A model generated the notes under the pieces. The model was not told the origin of the DNA and ran no database searches. It saw nothing but the letters and a program-made list of their open reading frames with translations. 64,000 nt of DNA, from positions 1 to 64,000 of IMG/VR virus record IMGVR_UViG_3300043434_000833; one strand, written 5' to 3'. Of this stretch, positions 21,072 through 64,000 are shown one piece after another. The position numbers were made by a program, and so were the translations under genes. Each line of letters opens with the position of its first letter. Position 1 is the first letter of the stretch. The DNA comes from a virus.

Positions 21072-22742
21072 TTATTTTATTTTAGCTTCTAAAGCCTCAA
21101 TACGATTTAATAATTCTTTGTTGGTTTCAATTAATAATGCTACCAATCTATCATATTTAACCGCTTTATAACCGTTCTCTCTTGTTGTTACAATTTCAGG
21201 TAAAACAGCCTCGATTTCTTGTGCCTTAACACCGATATCGTGACCTTCGTTTTCGTGAATACCTTCCATTGGAATCCAATCAAATGAGTAACCGTTAATT
21301 TGTTTTAACTTATCTAAAGAGTTAGGAATATTTTCAAAATTTTCTTTTAATCTTTCGTCTGATGCGTAGTATGCTATGACGTCATTGGTTGCTCTGATTA
21401 AACCCGTAGTTGCCGGTGCTGCAGTTCCTACACCTAATCCCGTTGTAATGTATGCATTTGCAAATTGTACACTTGAAGATGTTGCAACTGCCTGACCGAT
21501 TGAAACTTGAGTCCCTGACACACCAACACCAGTACCTGCGGTTACAACAGTAATATCTGCACTACCATTAAATGATACACCTTGTATTGCTCTCGCCGTT
21601 TGTAATGTTGTAGCGGTTGATGCGTTACCTGATAATGTTCCGGTAATCGTACCTGTAACCCCTAATGTGCCATTTACCTGACTATTTGACCCTAATGTAA
21701 TTGTTGTTCCATCATCAGTAATGTTTGAATCATTTAAATGATCTCCACCCGCAGATTTAGCAACTTTATTATTTGTTAATGTTGGTTCACTACCTAACGC
21801 TCCTGTATTTCTCGGTCCCGACATTAAAATACCACCCGTATAAGACGCACCTGAGGCTTGTTGGTATACCCAACGATCGTTTAAACTATCCCAAAATAAT
21901 GATCCTGTATGTAATGAACCACTATCCATAACAGATAAACCACCAAATCTCACACCAGGAGATGAAGTGTTAACTGTGATTACATTGTCATTTACTCTTA
22001 ATTGAGATGCGGTTGTGTATGTAATTGATGAAGAACCTAAAACGTTTAAGTTTTCAGTAATTGTCAAAGAACCTGTTATCGTGGTATTTGAATTAATGTT
22101 TACAAATGAACCGTTATCACTAACATTGGAATTAACCATAGTGTTAGATGAGAACTTACCTAAAACATTGTCTGTTCCTGATACTGTTACCGACGTACCT
22201 GACGTACCCGCAGTTCCTGATGAACCTGAAGTACCTGATGATCCACTAGACCCTGAAGTACCTGATGATCCACTAGAACCTGAAGTTCCCGATGAACCGT
22301 CAGAACCGCTAGATCCCGAAGTACCTGATGATCCACTAGAACCTGAAGTTCCCGATGAACCGTCAGAACCGCTAGATCCCGAAGTACCTGATGATCCACT
22401 AGAACCTGAAGTTCCCGATGAACCGTCAGAACCACTAGAACCTGAAGTTCCCGAAGTAGCGGCATTATATGACGTACCATTAATAACCACGTCATTCGTC
22501 ACATAAAGTGATCCTGATATTGTTTGGTTATCTTTAAATACGTTACTACCGGTAATAGCAAATTCAGTTGAGTCTTTGCCATCTAATTTATTGGAATCAG
22601 CAGCATAAGACGCTGAAATTGCGTTTGAGGTTGTACCGCTAATGGTTGCGTTTATTACACCGTCTACAGTAATGTCACTTTGGAAATGGGCCGAACCCGA
22701 TACCGTGAGAGATCCTGAGATGTTTGCATCAAATATTTTCAT
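21072..22742 (-). CDS. tail-fibre-like protein with collagen-like shaft and S74 chaperone domain
   Basis: Receptor-binding fibre of the virion. Order: N-terminal beta region (1-95) with repeated GSLTVSG- and SGSLYV-like strands; collagen-like shaft of GSS/GTS/GSD triplets (about 97-182); beta-helical region with SQLRVNDNVITVNTSS-type repeats; and a C-terminal intramolecular chaperone/autoprotease of the Peptidase S74 type, ASDERLKENF with Ser461 at the self-cleavage site (conserved Ser-Asp), then GVKAQEIEAVLPEIV. The fibre would trimerise and then shed the last 96 residues. The shaft is encoded by a 63-bp tandem repeat (22261-22449). Gene neighbours are glycosyltransferases, one of O-heptosyltransferase type, so the Ser/Thr-rich shaft is an attractive glycosylation target. 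Confidence 0.92.
   Translation of the reverse strand: MKIFDANISGSLTVSGSAHFQSDITVDGVINATISGTTSNAISASYAADSNKLDGKDSTEFAITGSNVFKDNQTISGSLYVTNDVVINGTSYNAATSGTSGSSGSDGSSGTSGSSGSSGTSGSSGSDGSSGTSGSSGSSGTSGSSGSDGSSGTSGSSGSSGTSGSSGSSGTSGSSGTAGTSGTSVTVSGTDNVLGKFSSNTMVNSNVSDNGSFVNINSNTTITGSLTITENLNVLGSSSITYTTASQLRVNDNVITVNTSSPGVRFGGLSVMDSGSLHTGSLFWDSLNDRWVYQQASGASYTGGILMSGPRNTGALGSEPTLTNNKVAKSAGGDHLNDSNITDDGTTITLGSNSQVNGTLGVTGTITGTLSGNASTATTLQTARAIQGVSFNGSADITVVTAGTGVGVSGTQVSIGQAVATSSSVQFANAYITTGLGVGTAAPATTGLIRATNDVIAYYASDERLKENFENIPNSLDKLKQINGYSFDWIPMEGIHENEGHDIGVKAQEIEAVLPEIVTTRENGYKAVKYDRLVALLIETNKELLNRIEALEAKIK
22261..22449. repeat. 63-bp direct tandem repeat in the fibre gene, three copies
   Basis: Units start at 22261, 22324 and 22387. 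The first two are identical and the third diverges after about 50 bases. Each encodes 21 residues of the collagen-like shaft. The perfect identity of two units suggests recent expansion, and copy number may vary between phage relatives. Confidence 0.85.
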
Positions 22743-48937: not shown

Positions 48938-49483
48938 ATGAGTAATAAATGGGATGAGTTTATCGAAACTCCATCAAAAAAATTCGGTTATCAAGTACCT
49001 ACATTTACTCCTTCAATTTTTAGAGAGTATCGAGGGGAAATATTTACCACTTTCCATAGTGAGAATCATCCTGTGATGAGACACATTCATTATGAGAAAT
49101 CTGAAATTAGTATTCACGGTCGATTTTCACGTTCTTACCAAGGAGTATTAAGGGGATTACACTACGATAATAAAACTTGGAAGTTAGTACAAGCCACTGT
49201 AGGAGATATATACTTAGTAGTTTTAGATATGAGACCTCAATCACCCACATATGGGGATTGGGAGTCATTCATCATATCTGAACGTAACAGAGAACAAGTA
49301 TTAGTACCTCCAGGATTTGCCAATGGTCATTATGCATTGACCGATTGTATGTTCCATTATAATCTATTCTATAAAGACGGATATGTCGATGCGGACGAAC
49401 AAGGTGTTGTTAAATGGAATGACCCAGAGTATCAAATGGAATGGCCAACAGATAAACCAACATTACAAAAACGAGACAGATGA
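48938..49483 (+). CDS. dTDP-4-dehydrorhamnose 3,5-epimerase-like (RmlC family) protein
   Basis: RmlC enzymes epimerise C3/C5 of 4-keto-6-deoxy nucleotide sugars, forming precursors of rhamnose and other deoxysugars. Seen: GVLRGLHYDNKTWKLVQATVG (residues 69-89) with catalytic His75, DMRPQSPTYGDWESF, VLVPPGFANGHYAL and HYNLFYKDGYVDADEQGVV (Tyr141 and Tyr145 region). 181 residues matches the family. The start is 1 bp after the stop of the epimerase gene, and the next gene overlaps by 4 bp. Substrate specificity not resolved; non-canonical variants act on other keto-sugars. Confidence 0.9.
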   Translation: MSNKWDEFIETPSKKFGYQVPTFTPSIFREYRGEIFTTFHSENHPVMRHIHYEKSEISIHGRFSRSYQGVLRGLHYDNKTWKLVQATVGDIYLVVLDMRPQSPTYGDWESFIISERNREQVLVPPGFANGHYALTDCMFHYNLFYKDGYVDADEQGVVKWNDPEYQMEWPTDKPTLQKRDR

Positions 49484-50115
49484 TAAAAAATTTAGTAGAC
49501 GAATTACCAATTGTAAACGAACCATTATGGGACAAGGCCGGTTTAGTACAATTTGAAAGAAAAATGGCGGACCATTGGGAGTCCGGTAAAGTAAGAGGAC
49601 CAATACATTTAAGTGGAGGTAACGAAGATGAATTAATTGAGATATTCAGATACGTTAAAAAAAGTGATTGGGTATTCTCAACTTGGAGGTCTCATTATCA
49701 CGCATTATTGAAAGGTGTACCTTCTGAATGGTTAGAGGAGGAAATTCTTGCCGGTCGTTCAATAACAATTGTAAATCAAGAAGAACGTTTCTATTCTTCA
49801 GCAATTGTGGGGGCAATCATACCGATTGCAACAGGAGTTGCATTATCAAATAAAAGAAATGGAACAGACGATAAGGTTTGGTGTTTCATTGGGGATATGG
49901 CATTTGAGACGGGTGGATTTTATGAAATGCACAAATATTCCCAACGTTATAATTTACCAATAAGATTTGTTGTAGAAGATAATGGAGTGTCAACAAATAC
50001 TCCAACCGAAGAAACTTGGAATGGTGTAAAAAGAGATGTACCGTATGACGTTATTTGGTATAATTATAAAAAAGAGTGGCCGCACTACGGAACAGGAAAA
50101 TGGGTGATTTTTTAA
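49480..50115 (+). CDS. minimal thiamine-diphosphate enzyme, PP-domain subunit (E1-alpha-like)
   Basis: ThDP-binding half of a split transketolase/pyruvate-dehydrogenase-E1-like enzyme. Seen: STWRSHYHALLKGVPSEWLE (residues 67-86) as in E1-alpha, and the ThDP pyrophosphate motif IGDMAFETGGFYEMHKYSQR with Gly138-Asp139 and Asn168 about 30 residues later (VVEDNGVSTNTP). At 211 residues it has only the PP domain. The partner with the PYR domain is encoded at 55595, five genes downstream. Likely makes or breaks a C-C bond on a keto-sugar, e.g. adding a two-carbon branch; this is inference. The stop is 16 bp inside the next gene. Confidence 0.8.
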   Translation: MIKNLVDELPIVNEPLWDKAGLVQFERKMADHWESGKVRGPIHLSGGNEDELIEIFRYVKKSDWVFSTWRSHYHALLKGVPSEWLEEEILAGRSITIVNQEERFYSSAIVGAIIPIATGVALSNKRNGTDDKVWCFIGDMAFETGGFYEMHKYSQRYNLPIRFVVEDNGVSTNTPTEETWNGVKRDVPYDVIWYNYKKEWPHYGTGKWVIF

Positions 50116-51359
50116 ATTTAGTTTACGATAATTGGACAGGTGATGGAGACACACATCGTCCTAATATGGAAAATACATTAGGTCGAGACAGATTTAAAAC
50201 TGTTGAGGGTCTTTTTAATTTTTATATGATGTTATTTAAAATTCGAATCAAGAATATTGATGACGTATATAATAACCCTAATGAAAATTTTTATTATTTT
50301 ATTAACGCAAATGGTAATAGTGCACATTACTATACTGAAAGAGATAATATACCATTACCTCAAATAGTGAAGGAATGTTTTTTAAATTGTAAAAATTTTA
50401 ATTTAGTTTTTATTAACGAACACGAATATGAAGACGTATCGTACATTAAATTTATCGATTCAAAATCAAAATCATTAGGTTACGATACTAAACGTATTTA
50501 CGTTATTAATAATGATTCTAAATTAGATGAGTATAAAAAAGAAATTGGCACTGATATAAATGTGTATTCATTAGGATTTCTTTTAAAATTTATTGCCGGA
50601 CACTTAGTTAAACAGAAAATTGAATTTAAACCGGAAAAAGATGGTAAATTCTTTCTTTGTCACAACAGATCACCCAAACCTCATAGATACACTCTATTAG
50701 TCCTTTTGAAAAACTCGGGATTATTAAATGAGGTTGATTGGTCATTGATTATGGGATGGTATAGACAAGAAAATATGAGAAATGGTGATACACATAAAGA
50801 TTTTTATCGTCATTTCTTTAGTCAAGACGATGTTATCCATTATCTACCTGAAATTGAATATTTTAGTAATATTGACATAAAGAAAAGTCATTTTGAGGAG
50901 GATACTTCTTGGTTTACTGCTGGTGATTTACACGATGATTTCGATTGGAAAGATATCTATGAGATAAAATCATTCCAAGAGTCATATGTGAATATTGTTA
51001 CCGAATCTAATTTCTTTAACAGGGCCATTCACATAACTGAAAAGTCAATAAAACCATTTTATTTTTACCAATTTCCATTATTTTTAGCTAGTCCTAATCA
51101 CGTAAAATATTTTAAAGAAAAATATGGATTAGATATGTTTGACGACATAATTGATCATAGTTATGATAGTGAATTAGACGATAAAAAAAGATTAAATCTT
51201 TTTTTTAATGAGATAAAACGTATCTCAGAAAATAAGGATGAATTTATTGAGTTTTATAAAAATAATCAGGATAGGTTTGAAAAAAATAAACAAATAATAA
51301 TTGAGATTGAAAAATCTAAAAAAGATGTGGAATATTTTACATCACTAATAAAAAAATAA
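50100..51359 (+). CDS. SEKTFKP-family protein, 419 aa
   Basis: Close relative of 42922-44196 on the opposite strand. Seen: FLNLVYDNWTGDGDTHRP near the start; FKPEKDGKFFLCHNRSPKPH with RYTLL in the middle; HITEKSIKPFYFYQFPLFLA and DDIIDHSYDSELDDKKRLNL near the end. ATG 50100 is preferred over the in-frame GTG at 50076, which would lengthen the overlap with the ThDP subunit to 40 bp. It ends 2 bp before the SDR-oxygenase fusion gene. Possibly a glycosyltransferase. Confidence 0.75.
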   Translation: MGDFLNLVYDNWTGDGDTHRPNMENTLGRDRFKTVEGLFNFYMMLFKIRIKNIDDVYNNPNENFYYFINANGNSAHYYTERDNIPLPQIVKECFLNCKNFNLVFINEHEYEDVSYIKFIDSKSKSLGYDTKRIYVINNDSKLDEYKKEIGTDINVYSLGFLLKFIAGHLVKQKIEFKPEKDGKFFLCHNRSPKPHRYTLLVLLKNSGLLNEVDWSLIMGWYRQENMRNGDTHKDFYRHFFSQDDVIHYLPEIEYFSNIDIKKSHFEEDTSWFTAGDLHDDFDWKDIYEIKSFQESYVNIVTESNFFNRAIHITEKSIKPFYFYQFPLFLASPNHVKYFKEKYGLDMFDDIIDHSYDSELDDKKRLNLFFNEIKRISENKDEFIEFYKNNQDRFEKNKQIIIEIEKSKKDVEYFTSLIKK

Positions 51360-51361
51360 TA

Positions 51362-53014
51362 ATGAAAAAAATATTAATCACGGGTTGTTCAGGTCTTTTG
51401 GGGACTTATTTAATAAAAAGATTTTTTAGACATTCGTACGATACTACAATTATTGGTGTCGATATTAATCCACCTAAAATTGATTTAAGCTCAAAAGAAG
51501 ATTTTATATTTGAACAATTAGATTTAACTAAAGATGGTAATGTTGAACATTTATTTGAGAAGTACAAACCAACATTGGTAATCAACGCTTTTGGTATTAA
51601 AGGTTCGCCGGTTAGAGCAAAAGAAAAACCGGTTGATTTTCTTTATCCGTCGTTGAAAATTAATACAGAAATTATTAATCAATCGTATAAACACGATGCT
51701 TGGTTGATTTTTGTTAGTTCTGTGGGTGTTTATTCACCTTCTGAAGTGTTTGTTGAGTCTGATGTTTGGAAAACATTGCCTTCAGAACACGATTGGTACC
51801 CGTCTTGGTCAAAACGTGTGGGTGAATTACTTTTAGAATCCTATAAAGTACAATATGGTTATGATAAATGGTCAATCATTAGGCCAGCTAATATCTTTGG
51901 TGATTATGATGACTTTAGTGGTAATGGAACTGTTATTTCATCAACAATAAAAAAGATTTGGGAAGCAACAGATGAAATAGAATGTTGGGGCGATGGTAGT
52001 CCGATTCGAGATTTTGTTTATGGTGAAGATGTGGCTGAGGCAATTTACAAGATGTACACAAATAAAATTAAGGATGTTGTAAATTTTGGCGCCGGCGAAG
52101 AGATTACAATTAAATCTATGATTGAGTCATTAGTAAAAATAAGTGGGAAAAACTTAACTATTAAATGGGATTCTTCTAAACCTAATGGTGATTTACGTAG
52201 ACAAATGGACGTTACTAAACAAACTCATTACGATTTATTACCAACAATACCTTTTGAACGAGCATTAGAAAGAACATACTATTATTACACCTCACAATTT
52301 AAACCAGAAAATTTAAAATTTAAACCTAAAGAATTGTTTGATAAGGGTTATTATATTGGAACACTTGATGAGATATTTGACGATTATGTTGAATTAGATA
52401 AGTGTATTGAGGAATTAGAAAGAATTTCGGTGACTAAAGAACATTATCGTGCTAGATTAGATTATAATTTAGAACCTGAAGACGAAAGATATGAAGTTGG
52501 GATTACTGAGGATAAAGTAAAAGAAAGGGAAGATTTCATTAAAAAGAATAACAAAATTACCATTCAAAAATGGTGGGAAAGTCAAAGTCCTACAGGTGCA
52601 TTTAACGATATTAAGAAGTATTTCGATGATAAAGTACAATTGTATTTAGAGAAGATTTATCCTGAATCTAAAGGTGTTGGTTCAAATAATAGTAACTTTA
52701 CCCTTTATGAAAATGGTGATTTTATAACTCCACATAGAGATGGGTTTAATGTTTGGAGATATTGTGTTATATTGATTTATCTGACAGATGAAAAAAATTA
52801 TAACGATGGTGGGGGTGAATTAGTTATTGAAGAAAACGGTGTACGTGAGGTAATTAAACCTATTAAAGGTAACTTTTGTATATTAGATTTTACAAGAAAC
52901 AATGCAAATCACGCGGTTAATCACGTTAAAAATGATTTTAGAAGATTTACCTATATAAACTTCTTCCAAAATAAAATTATCTATAATGAAGAAATGGAAA
53001 AAAATAATAAATAA
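51362..53014 (+). CDS. fusion: SDR epimerase plus 2-oxoglutarate/Fe(II) oxygenase, 550 aa
   Basis: Residues 1-about 310: extended SDR with GCSGLLG (8-14), NAFGIKGSPVRA, VSSVGVYSPSE and GDGSPIRDFVYGEDVAEA (210-227). The active-site area reads HDWYPSWSKRVGE: Lys151 is in the normal place but the residue four before it is Pro147, with Tyr146 shifted by one, so catalysis may be altered. Residues about 390-550: dioxygenase with His458 and Asp460 in FITPHRDGFN, IYLTDEKNYNDGGGELVI, and His517/Arg527 in NHAVNHVKNDFRRFTYINF. The join is in frame. A sugar-nucleotide could be epimerised or reduced and then oxidised. Confidence 0.85.
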   Translation: MKKILITGCSGLLGTYLIKRFFRHSYDTTIIGVDINPPKIDLSSKEDFIFEQLDLTKDGNVEHLFEKYKPTLVINAFGIKGSPVRAKEKPVDFLYPSLKINTEIINQSYKHDAWLIFVSSVGVYSPSEVFVESDVWKTLPSEHDWYPSWSKRVGELLLESYKVQYGYDKWSIIRPANIFGDYDDFSGNGTVISSTIKKIWEATDEIECWGDGSPIRDFVYGEDVAEAIYKMYTNKIKDVVNFGAGEEITIKSMIESLVKISGKNLTIKWDSSKPNGDLRRQMDVTKQTHYDLLPTIPFERALERTYYYYTSQFKPENLKFKPKELFDKGYYIGTLDEIFDDYVELDKCIEELERISVTKEHYRARLDYNLEPEDERYEVGITEDKVKEREDFIKKNNKITIQKWWESQSPTGAFNDIKKYFDDKVQLYLEKIYPESKGVGSNNSNFTLYENGDFITPHRDGFNVWRYCVILIYLTDEKNYNDGGGELVIEENGVREVIKPIKGNFCILDFTRNNANHAVNHVKNDFRRFTYINFFQNKIIYNEEMEKNNK

Positions 53015-53016
53015 AA

Positions 53017-53991
53017 ATGATAAATAAAGAATCCAAAATATTAATCACCGGCGGTTCGGGATTAGTAGGACAAAATTTAACCGCAAGATTAATAAATGAA
53101 GGTTATACCAATTTAAGAGTTAACCTACACATTAGAGGTGTGAGAACTGTTTATGATGGTGTTGAATACACTAAACACGATTTAAAAACATATGAAGGTT
53201 GTAAATCAGCTACTGAAGGTGTTGATGTAGTGTTTCACGCAGCCGCTTCTACCTCAAATGCGGTTGATACTGTGGTTGACCCATTGGCTCACGTTACACC
53301 TAACGTGGCAATGAATAATTTTTTAATTGACGCTTCGTGGAGAAATGAGGTTAAACATTATGTATTTATTTCATCAAACACGGTGTACTCACCAAAAGGT
53401 GATGAACCTGTTGTTGAAACTGATTTCTTATTTGATGAACCGTATCCTGTTTATTTTCCAGTTGGTTGGATGAAACGTTATGCTGAGGTTCAGTGTGAAC
53501 TCTATGCAAAATACTTACCACGAAAGATGAAATGTACAGTTATTAGACCGGCAAATTTGTTTGGTCCTCACGATAAGTATGATTTTAATAAATGTCACGT
53601 AACACCCGCAACAATTCGTAAAGTTGCCGATAGAATGGACCCAATACCAGTGTGGGGTGATGGTACCGAATTAAGAGATTTATTATACATCGAGGATTTT
53701 GTTGAAGCATTACAAGTCGTTATGGAAAATGAAACTGAAATGTTCCAAACGTACAACGTTGGTTCTAATAAAGTTTATTCGGTATTGGAAGTATTGGATA
53801 TGATGAAATCAATTGCAGACCACGAAGCTCCTATTGAGTTTATTAGTGGTAAGCCATCAATGATTCCAACACGTAAAATTGATTCAAATAAAATTAACGA
53901 AAAGTTAGGTTGGAAAGCTAAAACACCGATTACGGTTGGGTTATTACAAGCATATAATTGGTATAACAAAAATAAAAACGAATTTAATTAA
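53017..53991 (+). CDS. SDR-type NDP-sugar epimerase/reductase with altered active site, 324 aa
   Basis: Extended SDR: GGSGLVG (residues 12-18), VFHAAASTSNAV, SSNTVYSP, RPANLFGPHDKYD and WGDGTELRDLLYIEDFVEAL. As in the fusion protein upstream, the Tyr before Lys is not at the usual position (YFPVGWMKRYAE: Val occupies it, with a Tyr two residues further upstream). Sequence similarity of this part to the fused SDR suggests a duplication followed by gene fusion. GDP-fucose-synthase-like or another reductase role is possible. Confidence 0.82.
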   Translation: MINKESKILITGGSGLVGQNLTARLINEGYTNLRVNLHIRGVRTVYDGVEYTKHDLKTYEGCKSATEGVDVVFHAAASTSNAVDTVVDPLAHVTPNVAMNNFLIDASWRNEVKHYVFISSNTVYSPKGDEPVVETDFLFDEPYPVYFPVGWMKRYAEVQCELYAKYLPRKMKCTVIRPANLFGPHDKYDFNKCHVTPATIRKVADRMDPIPVWGDGTELRDLLYIEDFVEALQVVMENETEMFQTYNVGSNKVYSVLEVLDMMKSIADHEAPIEFISGKPSMIPTRKIDSNKINEKLGWKAKTPITVGLLQAYNWYNKNKNEFN

Positions 53992-53992
53992 T

Positions 53993-54820
53993 ATGAAAGG
54001 ATTATTATTTGGTGGTTGTTCATTTACTTGGGGGCAGGGTTTGTATTTCTATTCGGATTTGAATAGATTGATTTATCCTGAGAATGAATTTACATATAAA
54101 AGAGAAGATTTGAATGATGCACATTTAAGATTTAAAGATACATTAAGATATCCTCGTTTAGTTGCTAACCATTTTAAAACATTTGAAGTGGTTAAAAATG
54201 TTAATGGTGGAAGTGAAGATGAGACGTTTGATTTCTTTAAAACGATGTTTGAGGTACCTAGACATACCCAATTATCTCACTATCATTTAGATAGATTTGA
54301 TTATGACGATTTTGATTATATAGTTATTCAATTATCTCAAATATGGAGAAATAAATTTTATTTTACGTTAGATGGTGAGGAGGATTTTGCATATGTTTCA
54401 GCAAATAATAATCATCACGGTTATAATTGGGATAGACTTTTAGAATGGTTAACCGTAAACGATGAAACTGTTGAGAATGTAATTGAAACTTTATTCAAAG
54501 AACAACATAAAAGATTATTAAATGAAGTAAAATTTTATGAAGAGAAAGGTATTAAGGTTATAATCTTATCTTGGGAGGATGAATATTATAATATTTTAAA
54601 AAATGATTCTTATTTAATGGAACGTTATATTCGATTAACTTATAAAGATGAAACATACAATACGATTCGTGAAATGCATAATAAAAATCCACATTTAAAG
54701 ATTAAGGGTGATGTTGCATTTTTTGGTGATAATGTGCCAGATGATCATCATCCATCGAAAGAATGTCACGAAGTAATCGCACAAAACATTATAAGAAGAA
54801 TTGAAAGTGAATTAAAATAA
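53993..54820 (+). CDS. SGNH-like protein with GCS motif, 275 aa
   Basis: Starts at ATG 53993 (MKGLLFGGCSFTWGQGLYFY); the family Ser is at GCSFT, again with Cys instead of Asp. The C-terminal block DDHHPSKECHEVIAQNIIRR keeps Asp-x-His. Very similar to the next gene, so it is a local duplicate. A longer form starting at 53936 adds 19 residues without family sequence and would overlap the SDR stop by 56 bp, so it is rejected. Confidence 0.75.
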   Translation: MKGLLFGGCSFTWGQGLYFYSDLNRLIYPENEFTYKREDLNDAHLRFKDTLRYPRLVANHFKTFEVVKNVNGGSEDETFDFFKTMFEVPRHTQLSHYHLDRFDYDDFDYIVIQLSQIWRNKFYFTLDGEEDFAYVSANNNHHGYNWDRLLEWLTVNDETVENVIETLFKEQHKRLLNEVKFYEEKGIKVIILSWEDEYYNILKNDSYLMERYIRLTYKDETYNTIREMHNKNPHLKIKGDVAFFGDNVPDDHHPSKECHEVIAQNIIRRIESELK

Positions 54821-55593
54821 TGAAAGGGATTATATTTGCAGGTTGTTCATTTACTTGGGGACAGGGTTTGTATTTCTATTCAGATTTTCCAAACGTAGTT
54901 ACACAAACTGACGATAACTTTCATCCCGATAAATTAACGGAAGCACATATAAAATTTAAAGATTCTATTAGGTTCCCAAGATTAGTTGCAAATCATTTTA
55001 ATACCATTGAAATTGTAAGAAAACCAAATGGAGGTAATGATAGAATGTCGATGGATTTTATTAATACCATTCTTAATGAAGGTGGAAGTGATGGGAAATA
55101 TCATATTGAAGAAATTGAATATATTATACTTCAAACTTCTCAAATTGTGAGAAATGGTTTTGAATTTATATATAACAACACAAAATATAATATCACGGAT
55201 TCTCATTCCGATAAACCTTTTTCAAATTGGTTAATACAAGAGAATTTAACGTATGATGAATGGTTTTCAAGTTTTTGTCAACAAGTGTTTGATGATATCA
55301 AAAAATTCTTTATATTCTATGAAGAGAAGGGTATCAAAACAAGAATACTGAGTTGGCAGAATGATTTAGTACCATATATTCTAAAGGATGATTTTATGAA
55401 TGAAAGACACATTAAATTAAATTACTCTACGGAAAGATATAATTCAATAGACGACTTAGTAAATAATGTACAGAATATGTTGATTTCAAATGATTATTTT
55501 ACATTCTCTAACCCAATAAACGATAGACACCCTTCTAAATTGTGTCATAAAACTATAGCAAATAGTATCATAACTAACATTAAAAAATTTTAA
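54820..55593 (+). CDS. SGNH-like protein with GCS motif, 257 aa
   Basis: Paralogue of the preceding gene: MKGIIFAGCSFTWGQGLYFY start with GCSFT and a C-terminal NDRHPSKLCHKTIANSI with Asp-x-His. It overlaps the previous stop by one base. Tandem duplication with divergence in the middle parts. Esterase or acyl-transfer activity would be the default guess, but the loss of Asp makes this uncertain. Confidence 0.75.
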   Translation: MKGIIFAGCSFTWGQGLYFYSDFPNVVTQTDDNFHPDKLTEAHIKFKDSIRFPRLVANHFNTIEIVRKPNGGNDRMSMDFINTILNEGGSDGKYHIEEIEYIILQTSQIVRNGFEFIYNNTKYNITDSHSDKPFSNWLIQENLTYDEWFSSFCQQVFDDIKKFFIFYEEKGIKTRILSWQNDLVPYILKDDFMNERHIKLNYSTERYNSIDDLVNNVQNMLISNDYFTFSNPINDRHPSKLCHKTIANSIITNIKKF

Positions 55594-55594
55594 G

Positions 55595-56143
55595 ATGAGT
55601 TCACCTCAATACACCCCATACAAGGACGCACTAACCAATTCGATGACTTACTTAGGTCAACAACCAAACACCGTTTTTATAGGTCAACAAGTCCTTTGGC
55701 ACGGTAACCCAATGAGTACTACTATTGGTGACGTACCTAAAGAAAAATTAATCGAACTTCCTGTTATGGAAGAGTCACAAATGGGTTTATCATTAGGTAT
55801 GGCTATGGCTGGTGATTTTGTTGTGACATTCTATCCTCGATGGGATTTTATTGTTTGTGCAACCAATCAATTAGTTAACCACGTAGATAAAATCGGATTA
55901 ATGAGTCAAGGTAAATGGAACCCTAATATGATTATTCGTTTAGGTAAGGGGTCGGATAAACCATTGGACCCTGGTCACCAGCATAGAGGTGATTATTTTA
56001 GTGAATTTGAATCGATGTGTAGAAATATTACATTTCACGATTTAGGTAAATGGAATAATATTGAAAAAATATATAAAGATGCATATACTAAAGGTGGTAT
56101 TCACGTCATAGTTGAATATCCTGAGTTATATTACGAAGCATAA
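55595..56143 (+). CDS. minimal thiamine-diphosphate enzyme, PYR-domain subunit (E1-beta-like)
   Basis: Partner of the PP-domain subunit at 49480. Seen: LPVMEESQMGLSLGMAMAGD (residues 55-74) with Glu59, the residue that activates ThDP (P-x-x-E....G.A.G.A..G), followed by FVVTFYPRWDFIV and LDPGHQHRGDYFSEF. At 182 residues it lacks the C-terminal transketolase domain of E1-beta. Together the two subunits give a very small heterodimer or heterotetramer, similar in size to sulfopyruvate decarboxylase ComD/ComE. Last gene of the plus-strand operon, followed directly by a terminator. Confidence 0.8.
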   Translation: MSSPQYTPYKDALTNSMTYLGQQPNTVFIGQQVLWHGNPMSTTIGDVPKEKLIELPVMEESQMGLSLGMAMAGDFVVTFYPRWDFIVCATNQLVNHVDKIGLMSQGKWNPNMIIRLGKGSDKPLDPGHQHRGDYFSEFESMCRNITFHDLGKWNNIEKIYKDAYTKGGIHVIVEYPELYYEA

Positions 56144-56596: not shown

Positions 56597-57564
56597 TATA
56601 TTAATTTATTTTCTTTTTTTATTTCTGATAAATAATCATTTTTTATTATAAAATCATACATAGTTTTTGCTATCTCACTATGTCCTTTTATTGATGGGTG
56701 TGCACAAGGTGTAATAAAACCACCTTTTGACATTTTCTTGGACGAATACGCATAATCGTAGTACTTTGCTGATGATTCAACCCCTATTAAATCGTCTCTA
56801 TTTTCCAAATGACATAACATATCCGCAACACAAGGATAACCACCAGGTTTAAGATAATTATCCCAATTAACCATAGTCATCAATGCCGATAAATAATGAA
56901 TATTACCATAAAGATAATTTTTTGGGTCGTCTTTACTACCTTGTATTTTTTTGTAGAAGCTTTCGTTATTATAATCGGTCGAAAACGCACTTGTTAAGAT
57001 TAACTTAGCACCATTTGCTTTACACCAAGTTTGAGCGTCTGTGATGTTTAACAATAGTTCAATTACTGCGGATCTATCTGAATAAACGTGATTTAAATAT
57101 TCTTTCCATAAACCTTTTTCTTTACCTTCATATGAATCACTCGGCCACATTGTTTTAAAATGTACGTGTTGGTTTAGTTCCTTATGTACAAAATCAAATC
57201 TCTCCATACCGGTTAACATAAAAATCACTATTTTTTCTTTAGTGGTTTCCATTTTTAATTCTGGATGTAAATAAAGTTCTTTAACCGCAGCACGATTACC
57301 TCTACCTGTCATACCTAAATTAATTGGTGTGTAATCGGTTAAATGATTTTTACATAATTGGTTCACCCAAGAATTCTCATAAAAAATGTCAAACATTTCT
57401 TTTTCATCTTTCTCGGGAACGTTATTCAAGTCCCAATTATATTTTTCCCATACCTCTTCTGAACAAGACCCCTGTCCTTGTGTAAAACTATCACCAATCC
57501 CAATTATAAATTTTGATTCGGATGTTATTTTTCTAACAATATCGTATTTGTGATAATCAATCAT
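56596..57564 (-). CDS. SGNH hydrolase-like protein, 322 aa
   Basis: Block I IIGIGDSFTQGQGSCSEEVW (residues 20-39, Ser26), block with NLGMTGRGNRAAVKELY (Gly/Asn for oxyanion) and block V CAHPSIKGHSEIAKTMYDF. Longer than the other six relatives and intact. Ends ENKLI with TTAATATAATG overlapping the next gene's start. Likely O-acyl hydrolase or transferase partner. Confidence 0.8.
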   Translation of the reverse strand: MIDYHKYDIVRKITSESKFIIGIGDSFTQGQGSCSEEVWEKYNWDLNNVPEKDEKEMFDIFYENSWVNQLCKNHLTDYTPINLGMTGRGNRAAVKELYLHPELKMETTKEKIVIFMLTGMERFDFVHKELNQHVHFKTMWPSDSYEGKEKGLWKEYLNHVYSDRSAVIELLLNITDAQTWCKANGAKLILTSAFSTDYNNESFYKKIQGSKDDPKNYLYGNIHYLSALMTMVNWDNYLKPGGYPCVADMLCHLENRDDLIGVESSAKYYDYAYSSKKMSKGGFITPCAHPSIKGHSEIAKTMYDFIIKNDYLSEIKKENKLI

Positions 57565-58847
57565 TAAATTAATTTTTTAATTTCATTACCATTAACATAA
57601 GTTTTTAAATTCAAATACGCATCAGGGAATTTAAATAATTTACTAATTAATGTTTCTTGATTAAATTTAATATCTTCTTCCATTGATTTAAACCAATCAA
57701 GTTTATTTTTGATATCGTCAACTTTTTTAATTGACTCAGTAATGTATTGTAATCGTTGGTGTGTTGGTAATGAATCGTAAGTTTGGTCGATGAAATTATC
57801 AAATGTTTTATAACCAATTTTACGCATCATTCTCATACTATCTTTATTACCCATAATAATAAACGGATGATTACAAGCAATTACTTTAAATGTTTTTTCA
57901 CTTAAAAACATTGTTTCATCACTATCACCACAATGCGCCTCACTAATAACCGTCATAAATGTATCCAAACATATCTGGTCATTAAAACGTCTTATGTAGA
58001 AATTATCGTCAAATTCATCATTACGTTTTTCGTGTACTAATAATGGTAACCCGACAGATATTTCATCTATACGTTCATTATTAATCGACTCCCCTTCAAA
58101 ATAATAACCGTGTTTATCAAAGGCGTTCATACTAACCAATCCTTTATCTAACACACCTGATTGATGTAAGTAATTATAAAACCAAACTCTTTGTAATCTT
58201 ATTCTTTTATTAAGACAAGCATACGTTTTAATACTACCTAAATTAGATTCTTTATATTTTATGTGGTCGTCAAAAGTTGGTGGAGGGTCGCCTTTTTTAA
58301 TTTTATCATAACAAACCATACCCATATCCAATTCAAAATGTGCATATGGTATTACCTTCATTCTTTCACTTATATTGTTTTGGTTAGACCATATGTCGTA
58401 CGTTTCATCACATATCATATTACCTGTCACATAAATTAATCTTGTTGGTGATATATTGAATTCAACACATTTTTCGTGTAGATATCCCCATAACCAAGGT
58501 GTTTGATACCCTTCTAAACTTTGGTCTAACATTAAATAAGCTCTTTCATTTCTTAAGTCATTTAAATATTTTTCATTCAAATAATTAAAGAAACACTTAT
58601 CCACTTTTCCATAACCGGTCCAATCATCAGGACTGTGATTTACTGAGGATGGTATAATATACTCGCCGTCAAAATTTTCATCTACCGAATAGTAATTCAT
58701 TTCACCGTTCACACCATTTAATGAACAATATATACTAACTGCAGTTAATAGTGGTGATATACCATATATCAATTGTCCTGACGTATTTATGTCAGGACAA
58801 GATGTAAAATTTCTTAATGCCTCTTTATCTTCAAAAACAAAATTCAT
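57564..58847 (-). CDS. SEKTFKP-family protein (divergent member), 427 aa
   Basis: Seen: SLGSIKTYACLNKRIRLQRV-like central block around 210-229; C-terminal FLSEKTFKVIACNHPFIIMG followed by NKDSMRMMRKIGYKTFDNFI and DQTYDSLPTHQRLQY. The blocks follow the family order but the central part is weak. It lies between an SGNH gene and a twitch radical SAM gene and shares a base with each. Possibly a GT-B transferase. Confidence 0.65.
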   Translation of the reverse strand: MNFVFEDKEALRNFTSCPDINTSGQLIYGISPLLTAVSIYCSLNGVNGEMNYYSVDENFDGEYIIPSSVNHSPDDWTGYGKVDKCFFNYLNEKYLNDLRNERAYLMLDQSLEGYQTPWLWGYLHEKCVEFNISPTRLIYVTGNMICDETYDIWSNQNNISERMKVIPYAHFELDMGMVCYDKIKKGDPPPTFDDHIKYKESNLGSIKTYACLNKRIRLQRVWFYNYLHQSGVLDKGLVSMNAFDKHGYYFEGESINNERIDEISVGLPLLVHEKRNDEFDDNFYIRRFNDQICLDTFMTVISEAHCGDSDETMFLSEKTFKVIACNHPFIIMGNKDSMRMMRKIGYKTFDNFIDQTYDSLPTHQRLQYITESIKKVDDIKNKLDWFKSMEEDIKFNQETLISKLFKFPDAYLNLKTYVNGNEIKKLI

Positions 58848-60304
58848 TATTCTGTTGGTTTATTATAGTTATCAACATCCGATTCGTATATACCAGCTTC
58901 GTAATGTGTTATTCTACCATCGGTAACTTTTCTGTCAGGTATTGATTGGTCAACAACAAGTGAGTCGTACCAATCGGCAATTTCAGGGAAAGTCTCTTGG
59001 AAATTCTTATTTCTACGAATATCGTATTGGGTGTAAAAACTTTTGAAATCGTGGAATTGCATTTCCATATCCAACTCAGTAGTATTATGACCTCTATTAA
59101 CAACTTCAATGTAATCGATTAATCTTTCAATTTGAGCACCTTCGTGCATATTAATTAATGGATTCTTTTTATGTTTTCTCCACCACATTGATAACTTACC
59201 GTGTAATTCATATTTAATATCGTCAGGTAAAGTTAGTGGGGACATAAATGAAGGCCATCTTAAAATATTGAAATCAACAATTGGTTTATGAGTACCGTAT
59301 TGTTTCTTTAATTTCAACATATCATCTAAGAATTCAGTGATACTAAACAAACATAAACTATTGATTGTCATCATAATAACAACTTGTCTGATATTTGCGT
59401 TTTCAATTACTTTAACCAAATTTTCTCTCCATAAATCGTAATTTAAACCATCGCGAATATATTCGGCTTGTTCACCATAAGCCTCACAACTTGTATATAT
59501 ATCAAATTCTTTAACATCAATTTCGTGCGTGATGTTAACAAGTTTATCTAACGTTGCTTGATTTAAACCTAAATTAGAATTAATCGCAAGTCTTAAATTT
59601 GGTGATGGATGTTTTTTCATTGTTTCCATAAAAGCCCAAAAATTATGACTTTGTGAAGGTTCTCCTCCTGTGATTCTAATCTCTTCTAATGTTTGAGATA
59701 ATTCAGGCCACCACTCAAGAAACGCATTTACATAAGGGTTATCTCCGGCGTATTTTCCATACATTTCAGACCAAGAACCATCAGCATAATATGCACCTGC
59801 ACTCGATGTTTTAAATTTTTGATATGCTCCGTTGTTCTTTATATCTTTACCCCAAGCTGTACTATAACCTGAATTACAATAACTACAAGCAAATTGACAT
59901 ATACGGTCAAAACTTACTTCTACAGTTTTCAAAGGAATATCTTGATCCCAAGGAATGTGTTTAAGTGCTTCAATATCCTCTTCCTTATAAATTTGACTTT
60001 TATATACACGGTCAGAAATGTTATTTCTACCGATGTCTTCAATTTTCCAACAGTAAGAACATTCAGCAGGTTTAACACCTGTTAACATCATACGACGCAT
60101 TTCTTTTTTATGTTTCGTATTATGTAATGCCGATGGATTTGTTTTAATCTCCTCTAAATCAATAGGATGTGGTAATGGTAAATGACAAGAATTAGTAAAT
60201 CCGTGTCCAAGGTGGAGACTTGCGTTGTACCATTTCGCAGCACAAAAACTACAACTTATTGAGTTTAGGTTTTTATCTCTCCAATTACTTAATTGTTCTG
60301 ACAT
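58847..60304 (-). CDS. twitch-type radical SAM protein, 485 aa
   Basis: Radical SAM enzymes use a [4Fe-4S] cluster and SAM to form a 5'-deoxyadenosyl radical. Seen: cluster motif ICQFACSYCNS with Cys136, Cys140 and Cys143; TGGEPSQSHNF for SAM binding; and extra cysteines at 18, 21, 40, 82 and 85 (CSFCAAKW and CSYCW) that may hold an auxiliary cluster. The phage 'twitch domain' group fits its length. Reaction unknown; peptide or sugar modification is possible. Transcribed after the LamG-twitch protein. Confidence 0.85.
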   Translation of the reverse strand: MSEQLSNWRDKNLNSISCSFCAAKWYNASLHLGHGFTNSCHLPLPHPIDLEEIKTNPSALHNTKHKKEMRRMMLTGVKPAECSYCWKIEDIGRNNISDRVYKSQIYKEEDIEALKHIPWDQDIPLKTVEVSFDRICQFACSYCNSGYSTAWGKDIKNNGAYQKFKTSSAGAYYADGSWSEMYGKYAGDNPYVNAFLEWWPELSQTLEEIRITGGEPSQSHNFWAFMETMKKHPSPNLRLAINSNLGLNQATLDKLVNITHEIDVKEFDIYTSCEAYGEQAEYIRDGLNYDLWRENLVKVIENANIRQVVIMMTINSLCLFSITEFLDDMLKLKKQYGTHKPIVDFNILRWPSFMSPLTLPDDIKYELHGKLSMWWRKHKKNPLINMHEGAQIERLIDYIEVVNRGHNTTELDMEMQFHDFKSFYTQYDIRRNKNFQETFPEIADWYDSLVVDQSIPDRKVTDGRITHYEAGIYESDVDNYNKPTE

Positions 60305-60350
60305 ATTTGTCTTTTTTGTTAATATAAACTTTTTTATTGGTATTTTAAAA

Positions 60351-61094
60351 CTATTTTACAAATTCACTCGGTACTTTTTCCAAGAAATTTGTATTTTTTG
60401 ATTCATCGTAGATGATACCTAAATTATTGATAGTTTTGAAATCGTAATAACATAAAATGTCGTCATAAAAATTTCTTATTAATAAATTGTGTATCTCTGA
60501 GTGATATAGTTCACTACCTTTTTCAATATTAGATTCTCTTGTTAATATTGAAAAGTGGTTAATGTCAATTTCACCATAATATCTGTGTCTTTCAGAATCA
60601 CAATCGGGGCTTGAACATCCTAAAAATAGACTAGTATCCTTATAATCATCTACTAAATTGTTATCGAACATTATCTCATTGTCATATTCGAAATTTTTGT
60701 AACTAAAAAATTCATTACCCTTTCTCACGATTGAAATTGTTACTCCTGATTCGATTTCTTTTAATGAAACAGTTTTTAGTAATAAATTATTGTAAACATC
60801 TTCTTTATTCTTATCACCCTTAGTCCAAAATTCAAAACATAACTGATTGGTTTCATTATTAAATGATAAACCTAAATTCTTACCAGGTTTACCGAACACC
60901 ATCGATATATCATCTTTCTTGTAATGTTTCTTTATTTTAAAATTACAAGTGATTATGTAATTCTCTTTATGTAAGAAATAATTAAATGCACGATTCTCTG
61001 ATTTATCAAAATCTGTTACGTATTGATTATCGTGATGTTCATCAATATCCCATTGGAACTTTACCCAATATGGTTCTTTATACTTTATTCTCAT
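60351..61094 (-). CDS. LamG-like jelly-roll protein, 247 aa
   Basis: Concanavalin A-like fold with strands FGKPGKNLGLSF and NNETNQLCFEFWTK (about residues 68-95), IESGVTISIVRKGNEFFSYK, and TSLFLGCSSPD before the last strand. It is clearly similar to the N-terminal 215 residues of the next upstream protein (GIPGKNFGISYD, FVFEYWTKDED), so one arose from the other. Without a catalytic module it may bind a carbohydrate. It overlaps the next gene by 17 bp. Confidence 0.75.
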   Translation of the reverse strand: MRIKYKEPYWVKFQWDIDEHHDNQYVTDFDKSENRAFNYFLHKENYIITCNFKIKKHYKKDDISMVFGKPGKNLGLSFNNETNQLCFEFWTKGDKNKEDVYNNLLLKTVSLKEIESGVTISIVRKGNEFFSYKNFEYDNEIMFDNNLVDDYKDTSLFLGCSSPDCDSERHRYYGEIDINHFSILTRESNIEKGSELYHSEIHNLLIRNFYDDILCYYDFKTINNLGIIYDESKNTNFLEKVPSEFVK

Positions 61095-63177
61095 TTGTTA
61101 TGCTTTTTATAAATTCAATTAATTCAGGATAATATTGTTCACAAACCATTCCACGTCTCAATTCATATTGTCTAATAAATTTGACAAAATCTTGTCTATC
61201 AGTCTCAAACAATTTAGGGTCCGTCTCATAATCGGCAACAAACATATCTCTTAGTCTTGTTATTTTTTCAATCTCTTGTGTTGAAAACCCAACGTCACCA
61301 ATTTCTTGTGTCTTATGGAAATTTAAACTTCTAAACGTTGAGTTGAATTTCATAAACTTAATCCATCTATCAAAATACTCCACATCAATGTAATCTTTTA
61401 AAATTCTGAAACTCATAAACGGTGGATGTCTTAGATATGATGTATCTAATATAATGGCCGAATTCCAATATCTCTTAGTGTTAAAGTGTTTTAATTTTAG
61501 TTTATGAATCTTCCTAATTAATTGTTCATATGAGAATACACTAAACACGTTGAATGTAGACATCACCACAATTGTTACCTTAGGTAAAAGTGTTAGAATT
61601 TTATCTATGTTTTGGAATGTTTTATCGAAGTTCATACCGTAACGAGTATATTCAGCCTGAGCACCAAATCCCTCACAAGAGGTAAAGATAATCAACTCAC
61701 GTACTCTTTCTTCTTTAATTATCTTATCTAATTTTGTAATTAACTTATCAACTAAATCATCACTAATACCTAAATTACTGTTAATAGATAATTTTAAATT
61801 CTTATTAGGTGTTTCACTTTCAAGAATATAATCCAATACTTTCCAAGTGTCTTTGGATAACAATGGTTCACCTCCGGTAATTCTAAATGTATCTAAACTA
61901 TCATATAATTCGGGAAACCATTCCCAAAATGCATTTACATATGGGTTGTCCTCTGAATGTTTATATGGTTTAGTATTTCTTTCGACCATTCTATCCACAC
62001 TATTGTATTGGAATGATAAATCGTAAGCTCCGAACTCATTTATTTCTTCCATCCATTTAGATGAATATTCAGGTCCACAATACGCACACTTAAAGTTACA
62101 AGTGTTTGAGAAACTTACCTCAGCATACTTTGGATTATAATCTGATCTCCAATCTGATTTAACTATTTCATCATAGAATGGTTCCGACCAAGGTTCTGAT
62201 GATTTATAAACTCTATCGGAGAATGAATTTGAATTATCCTCTACGTTCCAACAGTATTGACATTCAGAGGGTCTTTCATCATTCAACATCTCTTTTCTCG
62301 CTTGTTTCTTAATCTTACTATTGTGGAGTGCAGTTGGATTTCTACTAATTTCCTCTAACCCAATTTTGTGTGGTTCAGGGTGGTGACAACTGTGGGTTGT
62401 ACCGTTATGTAAGTGCATTGTTACTTGTGTCCACTTAGCCAAACAAAAACCTTTACCGACAACATCTAATTTATCTTTAATTAATTCAAAACCAACTGTC
62501 GACATTTTGTTTTTCTTTTTCAAAAATGTCAAAGGTTTTACCTCATCAAAAATTAAAAAGTCTTCTCCAGTTGAATTTAAATTATAAAAACAATATAAAT
62601 TATCATAATCAATTGTACCCGAAATAGGTGTTTCATTTGTCACTAAACTCTCCAATTGTCTAATCGGTAATGCCTTATTGAACACACTAAAATGATAAAC
62701 ATCCATTTCAGTGATGCATCTGTGTTTAACATTCATACTGTCCATATTATGACACCCGATATAAATGGGTTCATTGATATAATCATCAATCAACGGATTT
62801 GAGTCTTCAATTGTGTCAAACAATTTAAAATCCTTAAATAAGGAATAGGTTGTACCATCATAAGTCAATGTAAATGTTAAACCTTTACTTAATGTTTTTT
62901 CATTAATACAATCATATAAATGATATTTAAATTTACCTTCAGTATCTTCATCTTTTGTCCAATATTCGAAAACAAATGAATCAACTTCATAGTCATAACT
63001 AATACCAAAATTTTTACCTGGTATTCCAAAGATTCCAATCTTATTATCTTTGTTATATGACTTTTCTACTTTAAATGTAATATTAATAGAATAACCATCA
63101 CCTCTTGTGATGATGTTAGTTTGTTCTTCAGTTAATTTTGGTTTTAAAAACCACGGTTTTTGGTATTCTATTTTCAT
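61078..63177 (-). CDS. fusion: LamG-like domain plus twitch radical SAM, 699 aa
   Basis: Residues 1-about 215 are a LamG-like beta-sandwich (INITFKVEKSYNKDNKIGIF, WTKDEDTEGKFKYHLYD, PIYIGCHNMDS). From about 226 a twitch radical SAM follows: ELIKDKLDVVGKGFCLAKWT, then SNTCNFKCAYCGPEYSSKWM with Cys360, Cys364, Cys367 and TGGEPLLSKDTWK. Extra cysteines at 245, 264, 306 and 309 parallel those of the 485-aa relative (although only one Cys of its CSFC pair is kept). The LamG part would hold the substrate, possibly a glycan or repeat protein, while the radical SAM part acts on it. The start overlaps the upstream gene by 4 bp. Confidence 0.85.
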   Translation of the reverse strand: MKIEYQKPWFLKPKLTEEQTNIITRGDGYSINITFKVEKSYNKDNKIGIFGIPGKNFGISYDYEVDSFVFEYWTKDEDTEGKFKYHLYDCINEKTLSKGLTFTLTYDGTTYSLFKDFKLFDTIEDSNPLIDDYINEPIYIGCHNMDSMNVKHRCITEMDVYHFSVFNKALPIRQLESLVTNETPISGTIDYDNLYCFYNLNSTGEDFLIFDEVKPLTFLKKKNKMSTVGFELIKDKLDVVGKGFCLAKWTQVTMHLHNGTTHSCHHPEPHKIGLEEISRNPTALHNSKIKKQARKEMLNDERPSECQYCWNVEDNSNSFSDRVYKSSEPWSEPFYDEIVKSDWRSDYNPKYAEVSFSNTCNFKCAYCGPEYSSKWMEEINEFGAYDLSFQYNSVDRMVERNTKPYKHSEDNPYVNAFWEWFPELYDSLDTFRITGGEPLLSKDTWKVLDYILESETPNKNLKLSINSNLGISDDLVDKLITKLDKIIKEERVRELIIFTSCEGFGAQAEYTRYGMNFDKTFQNIDKILTLLPKVTIVVMSTFNVFSVFSYEQLIRKIHKLKLKHFNTKRYWNSAIILDTSYLRHPPFMSFRILKDYIDVEYFDRWIKFMKFNSTFRSLNFHKTQEIGDVGFSTQEIEKITRLRDMFVADYETDPKLFETDRQDFVKFIRQYELRRGMVCEQYYPELIEFIKSITNENKV

Positions 63178-64000
63178 TTCATTCTTACATTTACAAATTT
63201 AGTATTAGGGTATAACGTGTCATCCACATTATCCACTTCCAACACTTCTAATATTTTATTAAGTCCGTCTTCTTTATAGTTAATTTTTCCCTGTTGCATT
63301 TCAGTTACGAATCGTTTTTCGTTTCTCGCTGTTGTCTCACCCTTCTTCCACGTACCGTCAACAAACCCCTCATCTTCGTGATGCATACATAAGAAATTAC
63401 CTTCCTTTCTAATCGGGATAACATTTTCAATTACTTCAATGTTTTCTTGTGCTATCTCGGTGTTTAAATTTTCACAAATGATGTTGTTAATCTTATCTAA
63501 ATAACCATTCTCAAAATCCATATGTAAAATTAAATCTTCAGTATTTTCAAACACAGACTCAACATCGGTAAAGTGTTTATTAAAAATTTTAATTTCGGAT
63601 ATTTGTCCTTTATAGTATGTTTGTTGATTACTACAAAATCCAAGTATAAATGGATTAGTATTATCGTGTTTCTTTAAACTTTCACCAATTGTGAATGGTA
63701 TGTTTTCTTTAATGTTATTCATATTGGTGACTAACTCATCATTAACAAAGAAATACATTTCTTTTGTTTTTTTATTAAACGATACTGTTACCCAAGTCCA
63801 TTCACCCTCAAATTTTTTAGCCCAATTGTTGTGATAGTTATCTTTCTTATCAAATACAGTCATATTAACCGTTCTTGAATTATTAAATGACAAACCCCAC
63901 GTCCAAGATTCGTGTTTTCTTAGAATTGGATACTCTATGAATTTTTTTTCTTTATCGCCAACTAACCATATTGGTACCTTTTCTTGTTGTTGTTCCGCCT
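63174..64000 (-). CDS. LamG-like protein, N-terminus beyond window
   Basis: The reading frame is open to the right edge; the visible part begins AEQQQEKVPIWLVGDKEKKF. Seen: the LamG pattern ESWTWGLSFNNSRTVNMTVF, EGEWTWVTVSFNKKTKEMYF and NPFILGFCSNQQTYYKGQIS followed by a short helix (EIKIFNKHFTD). After about residue 190 of the visible part comes an extra segment (NFLCMHHEDEGFVDGTWKKG and onward) of unknown nature. A TTG at 63893 is not the start. Its LamG part is a third copy related to the two next genes downstream. Another catalytic domain may lie upstream. Confidence 0.75.
   Translation of the reverse strand, partial: AEQQQEKVPIWLVGDKEKKFIEYPILRKHESWTWGLSFNNSRTVNMTVFDKKDNYHNNWAKKFEGEWTWVTVSFNKKTKEMYFFVNDELVTNMNNIKENIPFTIGESLKKHDNTNPFILGFCSNQQTYYKGQISEIKIFNKHFTDVESVFENTEDLILHMDFENGYLDKINNIICENLNTEIAQENIEVIENVIPIRKEGNFLCMHHEDEGFVDGTWKKGETTARNEKRFVTEMQQGKINYKEDGLNKILEVLEVDNVDDTLYPNTKFVNVRMK

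Follow-up and report, generated by a model that had tools for sequence, protein, structure and literature searches.

The window analysed here comprises bases 1-64000 of the 71,707-base virus record IMGVR_UViG_3300043434_000833 (G000), and near its end lies a tightly packed minus-strand row of open reading frames (ORFs), in which predicted glycosyltransferases and radical S-adenosylmethionine (SAM) enzymes carry or adjoin LamG-like domains (Table 1). The last of these ORFs crosses base 64000 and was completed with the remaining 7.7 kb of the record, and the ORFs of the solo LamG-like protein and of the LamG-radical SAM fusion overlap by 17 bp. The region forms the final part of a conserved phage cassette consisting of fibre-type genes, a methyltransferase, a GT2-like protein, two putative GT7 glycosyltransferases with an inserted LamG (GT7-LamG b and GT7-LamG a), a first radical SAM protein (rSAM A, here fused to LamG), a small LamG-like protein and a second radical SAM protein (rSAM B). 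A GT2-like protein, a methyltransferase and a fibre-like virion protein are encoded upstream of both GT7-LamG genes.

Table 1. Genes and domains at the cassette end (window positions; G000, positions of the full record).
Feature	Position	Strand	Basis or remark
rSAM B, twitch-domain radical SAM protein, 485 aa, without LamG	58847..60304	-	NF033640, 300 bits
Solo LamG-like protein, 247 aa	60351..61094	-	paralogue of fusion residues 1-221 (predicted)
LamG-rSAM A fusion, 699 aa	61078..63177	-	NF033640, predicted fold, length conservation
LamG-like domain of fusion, residues 1-221	62515..63177	-	VIA-align, dN/dS
N-terminal twitch and radical SAM part of fusion, residues 242-689	61111..62454	-	NF033640, motifs
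GT7-LamG a, C-terminal 275 residues	63174..64000	-	complete gene is G000 63174-64607, 477 aa
LamG insert of GT7-LamG a	63564..64000, on to G000 64073	-	Laminin_G_3, residues 179-348
GT7 C-terminal segment past the insert, about residues 398-477	63174..63416	-	invariant residues
GT7-LamG b, second such gene, beyond the window	G000 64604-66013		next gene upstream of GT7-LamG a

An earlier note on this DNA had described three consecutive LamG-like proteins at this place. LamG-like parts are indeed present in all three, but a Pfam scan of the completed edge protein replaces the three plain LamG proteins by a GT7-LamG, a LamG-radical SAM fusion and a LamG-like protein. The completed protein matches Glyco_transf_7N (4.5e-16, 59 bits versus a cut-off of 27), Glyco_transf_7C (2.4e-18, 66 bits versus a cut-off of 23) and Laminin_G_3 (1.2e-7), and Laminin_G_3 reaches 32.5 and 30.8 bits in the two GT7 inserts (cut-off 27.6). 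By its domain content, this gene encodes a predicted GT7 (beta-1,4-galactosyltransferase-type) glycosyltransferase with LamG inserted in the catalytic domain, between the WDWGQEDDD motif and the C-terminal His segment; GT7-LamG b is 30% identical to it. Residues of the FNR, DVDM and W-x-WG-x-ED motifs, among them D74 and D76 of the metal motif and W138, W140, G141, E143 and D144, are invariant in 11 relatives, as are P398, R400, H410, G414, N429, R432, F433 and G448 of the C-terminal segment. Past the insert, H410 and RF/DGLN-like residues are kept, the likeness to the b4GalT C-terminus being at the level of motifs and without a significant alignment. The GT7-LamG family profile matches b4GalT7 with a best value of 2.7e-43, the nearest solved structures are b4GalT7 and then b4GalT1, and one predicted model of GT7-LamG a matches both b4GalT7 and the PAPP-A/pentraxin LamG folds in Foldseek. 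Matches to the fold of the botulinum neurotoxin binding domain were set aside as the common lectin jelly roll, with nothing toxin-like implied.

The phage proteins resemble the beta-1,4-galactosyltransferases in both Pfam halves and in the FNR, DVDM and WGWG-EDD-type motifs, but differ from them in bearing a LamG of about 200 residues before the C-terminal segment, and galactose transfer to GlcNAc, Glc or Xyl, the activity of that family, is putative for them. The insert presumably adjoins the segment that closes the acceptor site in b4GalT structures. In eukaryotic polypeptide GalNAc-transferases, an accessory lectin domain guides acceptor choice; as a comparison of working principle, with no membership intended, GT7-LamG likewise joins a transferase to an accessory lectin-like domain, although the lectin fold of the GalNAc-transferases is a different one and is appended, whereas the phage LamG is inserted.

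As the earlier note had claimed, a further LamG part is fused to a radical SAM module, and the second radical SAM protein is devoid of LamG. In the AlphaFold model of the fusion (a single predicted model, whole-model mean pLDDT 83), the N-terminus is all-beta. Comparison of residues 1-225 by VIA-align returned the LamG domain of PAPP-A (Z 17.2, rmsd 3.0 over 189 residues), a putative carbohydrate-binding protein of Bacteroides (Z 16.8), pentraxins (Z about 15), sialidase carbohydrate-binding domains (about 13) and the neurexin LNS/LG domain (Z 12.8), and the part is, as modelled, a LamG/pentraxin jelly roll and not the other fold for which the note had allowed. In the comparison of the window proteins with Pfam, neither the fusion N-terminus nor the solo protein reached the cut-off of Laminin_G_3 (PF13385), and both are therefore termed LamG-like by fold, outside PF13385. 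Only the edge ORF among the three LamG-type ORFs of the window has a Pfam LamG match (1.2e-6 in its truncated form, 63174-64000), and Laminin_G_3 attains just 17.9 bits at the place of the solo LamG in the relative G003, against the same cut-off of 27.6.

The solo protein shares 28% identity with fusion residues 1-221 (E 7e-31) and is, judging from this similarity, a paralogue of the fusion LamG; in every fused locus it is recognised by the LamG profile. Two LamG copies precede the radical SAM part in some relatives. In profile comparisons, the fusion-type LamG matched the LamG of GT7-LamG b (hhalign 94%, E 1.4e-7) and gave no match to that of GT7-LamG a, a result that does not point to a single recent LamG donor. 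The fold also bears on the possibility that LamG is a pentraxin-like module for protein-protein contact or oligomerisation, which unites the enzymes or docks them on LamG-bearing fibres without binding sugar. The domain is as near to pentraxins and PAPP-A as to carbohydrate binders, and extra LamG domains occur in virion-like proteins just upstream of the cassette; an insertion inside a GT7 catalytic domain, presumably beside the acceptor-closing segment, is odd for a pure scaffold, and we regard this explanation as improbable.

Both radical SAM proteins are assigned by profile to NF033640 (N_Twi_rSAM), and radical SAM activity and a second Fe-S cluster are predicted for them. Residues 242-689 of the fusion score 309-311 bits and rSAM B is likewise far above the curated cut-off of 170 bits, the two being 36% identical over the radical SAM part. 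The CxxxCxxC motif is CNFKCAYC in the fusion, which also has an ITGGEP motif, and CQFACSYC in rSAM B; the N-terminal twitch cysteines (C-x13-G-x4-C and CxxC) are present in both proteins, and C32, G46, C51, C93, C96, C147, C151 and C154 are invariant in alignment A3. Residues 326-641 of the fusion resemble SkfB, a maturase of ribosomally synthesised and post-translationally modified peptides (RiPPs), with Z 12.9 (VIA-align). The proteins thus share with the family the score and the radical SAM and N-terminal twitch Cys motifs, but the NF033640 model spans the catalytic part only, and the N-terminal LamG of the fusion is an extra, confined to one phage lineage.

The fusion could in principle be an artefact, with the true start at Met225 and the LamG part a separate or untranslated frame. 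Met225, a possible internal start, sits where the two domains meet and is shared by the loci L001, L002 and L004, and the earlier note had raised the possibility that it is the true start in relatives. It is, however, absent in L006 and L010 with the frame still fused, and the window sequence shows no clear ribosome-binding site ahead of it. Furthermore, the fused frame is present in 24 IMG/VR contigs besides the window's own (13 by one search and 22 by another, distinct names pooled), and the whole length is kept in L001-L012 and L018 of the first search. The ratio of non-synonymous to synonymous substitution (dN/dS) against L001 is 0.04 for the LamG part and 0.02 for the radical SAM part, the former ranging from 0.04 to 0.37 overall, and both parts are under purifying selection. 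The internal start was accordingly rejected as the source of the apparent fusion on the loss of Met225, the dN/dS values and the conserved fused frame, and an artefact is extremely improbable.

In the rSAM A tree, the fused proteins need one change, compared with an average of 19.2 with shuffled labels, which fits, with moderate strength, a single origin of the fusion. In the nearest unfused relatives (L100, L102, L103, L109 and L110), a separate gene for this type of LamG comes directly after rSAM A, as detected by hidden Markov model. In more distant unfused relatives, rSAM A is followed by a gene of 190-260 aa, and one group of 15 such proteins is LamG-like (hhalign 97.5%, E 7e-12, 176 columns); the profile comparison returned no clear LamG match for three smaller groups. 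Since the parts are fused in one lineage and separate neighbours elsewhere (a ‘Rosetta stone’ arrangement), LamG and the twitch radical SAM enzyme probably work together, a functional link that is well supported on sequence grounds.

The carriers of the cassette are a lineage of large, uncultured tailed phages, in which it adjoins tail-fibre genes; the terminase of G002 is at most 30% identical to terminases of cultured tailed phages. GT7-LamG is encoded by 307 viral stretches, the best 80 of which were kept, and the order methyltransferase, GT2-like, GT7-LamG b, GT7-LamG a, rSAM A, small gene and rSAM B recurs, with variations, in about 70 contigs. In a side lineage (L151-L155), a protein of approximately 1,350-1,450 aa follows GT7-LamG in place of the radical SAM genes. 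A tblastn search of 50,697 phage records returned no match to the fusion or to GT7-LamG, and the unfused rSAM A query found among cultured phages only two Vibrio phages, at 22.6% identity. No relative of GT7-LamG was found in GTDB species genomes, while relatives of rSAM A are present at 40 loci in cellular contigs, mostly metagenome-assembled genomes (MAGs) of Bdellovibrionota, with none of them fused to LamG. These cellular relatives (L168-L207) are concentrated in Bdellovibrionota MAGs, sometimes as multi-copy arrays (L180, L181). In L172, L195 and L204, filed as MAGs of Gammaproteobacteria, Pelagibacterales and Flavobacteriales, GT7-LamG adjoins rSAM A; these look like phage contigs binned with bacteria.

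The component families are all known already, but their combination was not met in the open-access literature searched, which held no LamG inserted in GT7, no such cassette and, in agreement with the earlier note, no LamG/twitch radical SAM fusion. The jumbo phage pPa_SNUABM_DT01 has several LamG genes and six radical SAM genes, and so combines LamG and radical SAM in one phage, but in the accessible part of its description these are separate genes, with no fusion or glycosyltransferase link reported (PMC8541153). Another report, on a marine T4-like genome, lists 12 radical SAM genes without this context (PMC5332604).

The genes upstream of the cassette in related genomes encode tail-fibre proteins (for example, L081:11634-15161, phrog_5073, 1.7e-45), and chaperone-of-endosialidase, glycine-rich, C1q and LamG domains occur upstream in other cassette lineages. 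A motif count for fibre genes in the cassette loci found almost none within 6-kb flanks, because such flanks are too short; the fibre genes beside the cassette were therefore assessed by family scans. In several relatives, small virion-like proteins encoded upstream contain additional LamG domains. The window has a fibre gene at 21072-22742, another lies beyond its end (G000 67816-69729), and between the two are encoded glycosyltransferases, a UDP-glucose dehydrogenase, a carbamoyltransferase, epimerases and a transketolase-like gene.

Several enzymes of the operon carry or adjoin LamG, and the operon lies next to fibre genes in a glycan-rich part of the genome; most simply, LamG would hold a shared substrate, most likely on the phage's own fibres. 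The sharing of a LamG module by sugar-transfer and radical enzymes suggests joint work on one substrate, and its occurrence inside GT7 suggests an accessory domain common to several enzymes and favours a glycan or glycoprotein as that substrate; the nearness of the fold to carbohydrate-binding and pentraxin domains speaks in the same direction. It is tentatively proposed, as an account that falls a little short of an even call, that the cassette assembles and then edits a glycan or glycopeptide on tail fibres of the phage itself, with LamG as the substrate binder. The modification would take place inside the host cell, ahead of assembly; the lectin-like LamG modules would keep one and the same glycan or glycoprotein close to the GT7 active site and, fused or as a separate small protein, close to the radical SAM enzyme. 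The reaction of the two radical SAM enzymes might then be a radical C-H change on this substrate, for instance epimerisation, dehydrogenation or cross-linking. Radical SAM enzymes require SAM, a reductant and Fe-S clusters, and should thus work in the cytoplasm and not from the virion. The earlier note had linked LamG to the radical SAM enzyme and had LamG present a substrate to it: the functional link stands on the conserved fusion, its probable single origin and the separate LamG-like gene in unfused relatives, while presentation of a substrate is a reasonable suggestion.

A more specific form of this proposal would have the LamG lectin, whether inserted, fused or separate, direct the GT7 enzymes and the N-twitch radical SAM enzyme alike to one fibre-borne glycan or glycopeptide, yielding a radical-modified sugar or residue on the virion. 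To our knowledge, no such virion modification is known from any virus, and this form is on the doubtful side.

Several points weigh against a fibre glycan as the common substrate. LamG folds also bind proteins or merely oligomerise, the tree branch that would reflect one fusion event has moderate support (67/38), and the families of 57 proteins neighbouring the bacterial rSAM A genes revealed no single pathway, although some glycosyltransferases and transporters are among them. In addition, the first search yielded 51 phage loci with rSAM A, often with rSAM B, that have neither this LamG nor GT7 in their flanks, which argues that the radical SAM chemistry does not require LamG or GT7 and that these are additions to a pair also found alone. 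Together with the structural nearness to SkfB, these loci favour modification of a ribosomal peptide or of the fibre polypeptide by the radical SAM pair, independently of the glycosyltransferases and with LamG recognising a protein. No precursor peptide turned up, though no systematic search was made for one, and the order beside GT7 is strongly conserved in the LamG-bearing phages; we consider this possibility quite unlikely.

Alternatively, the cassette may remodel a surface polysaccharide of the host (O-antigen or capsule) during infection, blocking superinfection or altering the receptor, with LamG binding the host glycan. The window has many nucleotide-sugar and transferase genes, and the host-recognition clusters of pelagimyophages combine, as here, tail fibres, glycosyltransferases and radical SAM cassettes, for which modification of the host O-chain has been proposed (PMC7029224). 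The likeness is one of gene content only: the accessible part of that report describes no LamG-tagged enzymes or GT7, and the cluster is a variable region there, compared with the conserved order here. The tie of the cassette to fibre genes in the genomes read speaks for the phage's own fibres, and among the genes scanned, in a search that was not exhaustive, neither a membrane flippase nor a polymerase was identified. Such host-surface remodelling is a contender, but an unlikely one.

Aquatic phages and Bdellovibrionota MAGs repeatedly encode NF033640 proteins, for which no known substrate was found. Through the fusion and the fixed gene order, the family is connected with LamG and GT7 beside tail fibres, and its function becomes directly testable. 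A LamG within a GT7 catalytic domain provides a natural example of an accessory lectin-like part on a glycosyltransferase. If the fibres are the substrate, the cassette would bear on how large phages build and diversify their receptor-binding parts.

Other features of the surroundings are as follows. Upstream of the cassette, L081, L082, L083 and L087 encode series of small virion-like proteins that bear LamG, together with fibres containing collagen-like G-x-x repeats and proteins with Pro/Thr-rich (PTPTP) repeats, and the record analysed here has a PTPTP-rich protein at its far end. In the window, 51362-53014 (+) is a 550-aa ORF in which an NAD-dependent sugar epimerase (2.2e-35) is joined to a 2-oxoglutarate-Fe(II) oxygenase domain (4.1e-9). 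The adjacent genes 53936-54820 and 54820-55593 (+) encode look-alike proteins, beginning GGCSFTWGQGLYFYSD and AGCSFTWGQGLYFYSD, which are possibly SGNH-type hydrolases, the second being without a Pfam match. Transketolase-like pieces are encoded by the separate genes 49480-50115 and 55595-56143 (+), the latter with a weak match to Transket_pyr (8e-4), and these are possibly a split enzyme for an unusual sugar. Finally, 50076-51359 (+) and 57564-58847 (-) encode two 427-aa proteins without a significant Pfam match, which share an EK(S/T)xKxxxxxxPxxxxxxxxxxxxxxxxGxxxFxxxIDxxYD-like segment and are possibly unclassified glycosyltransferases.

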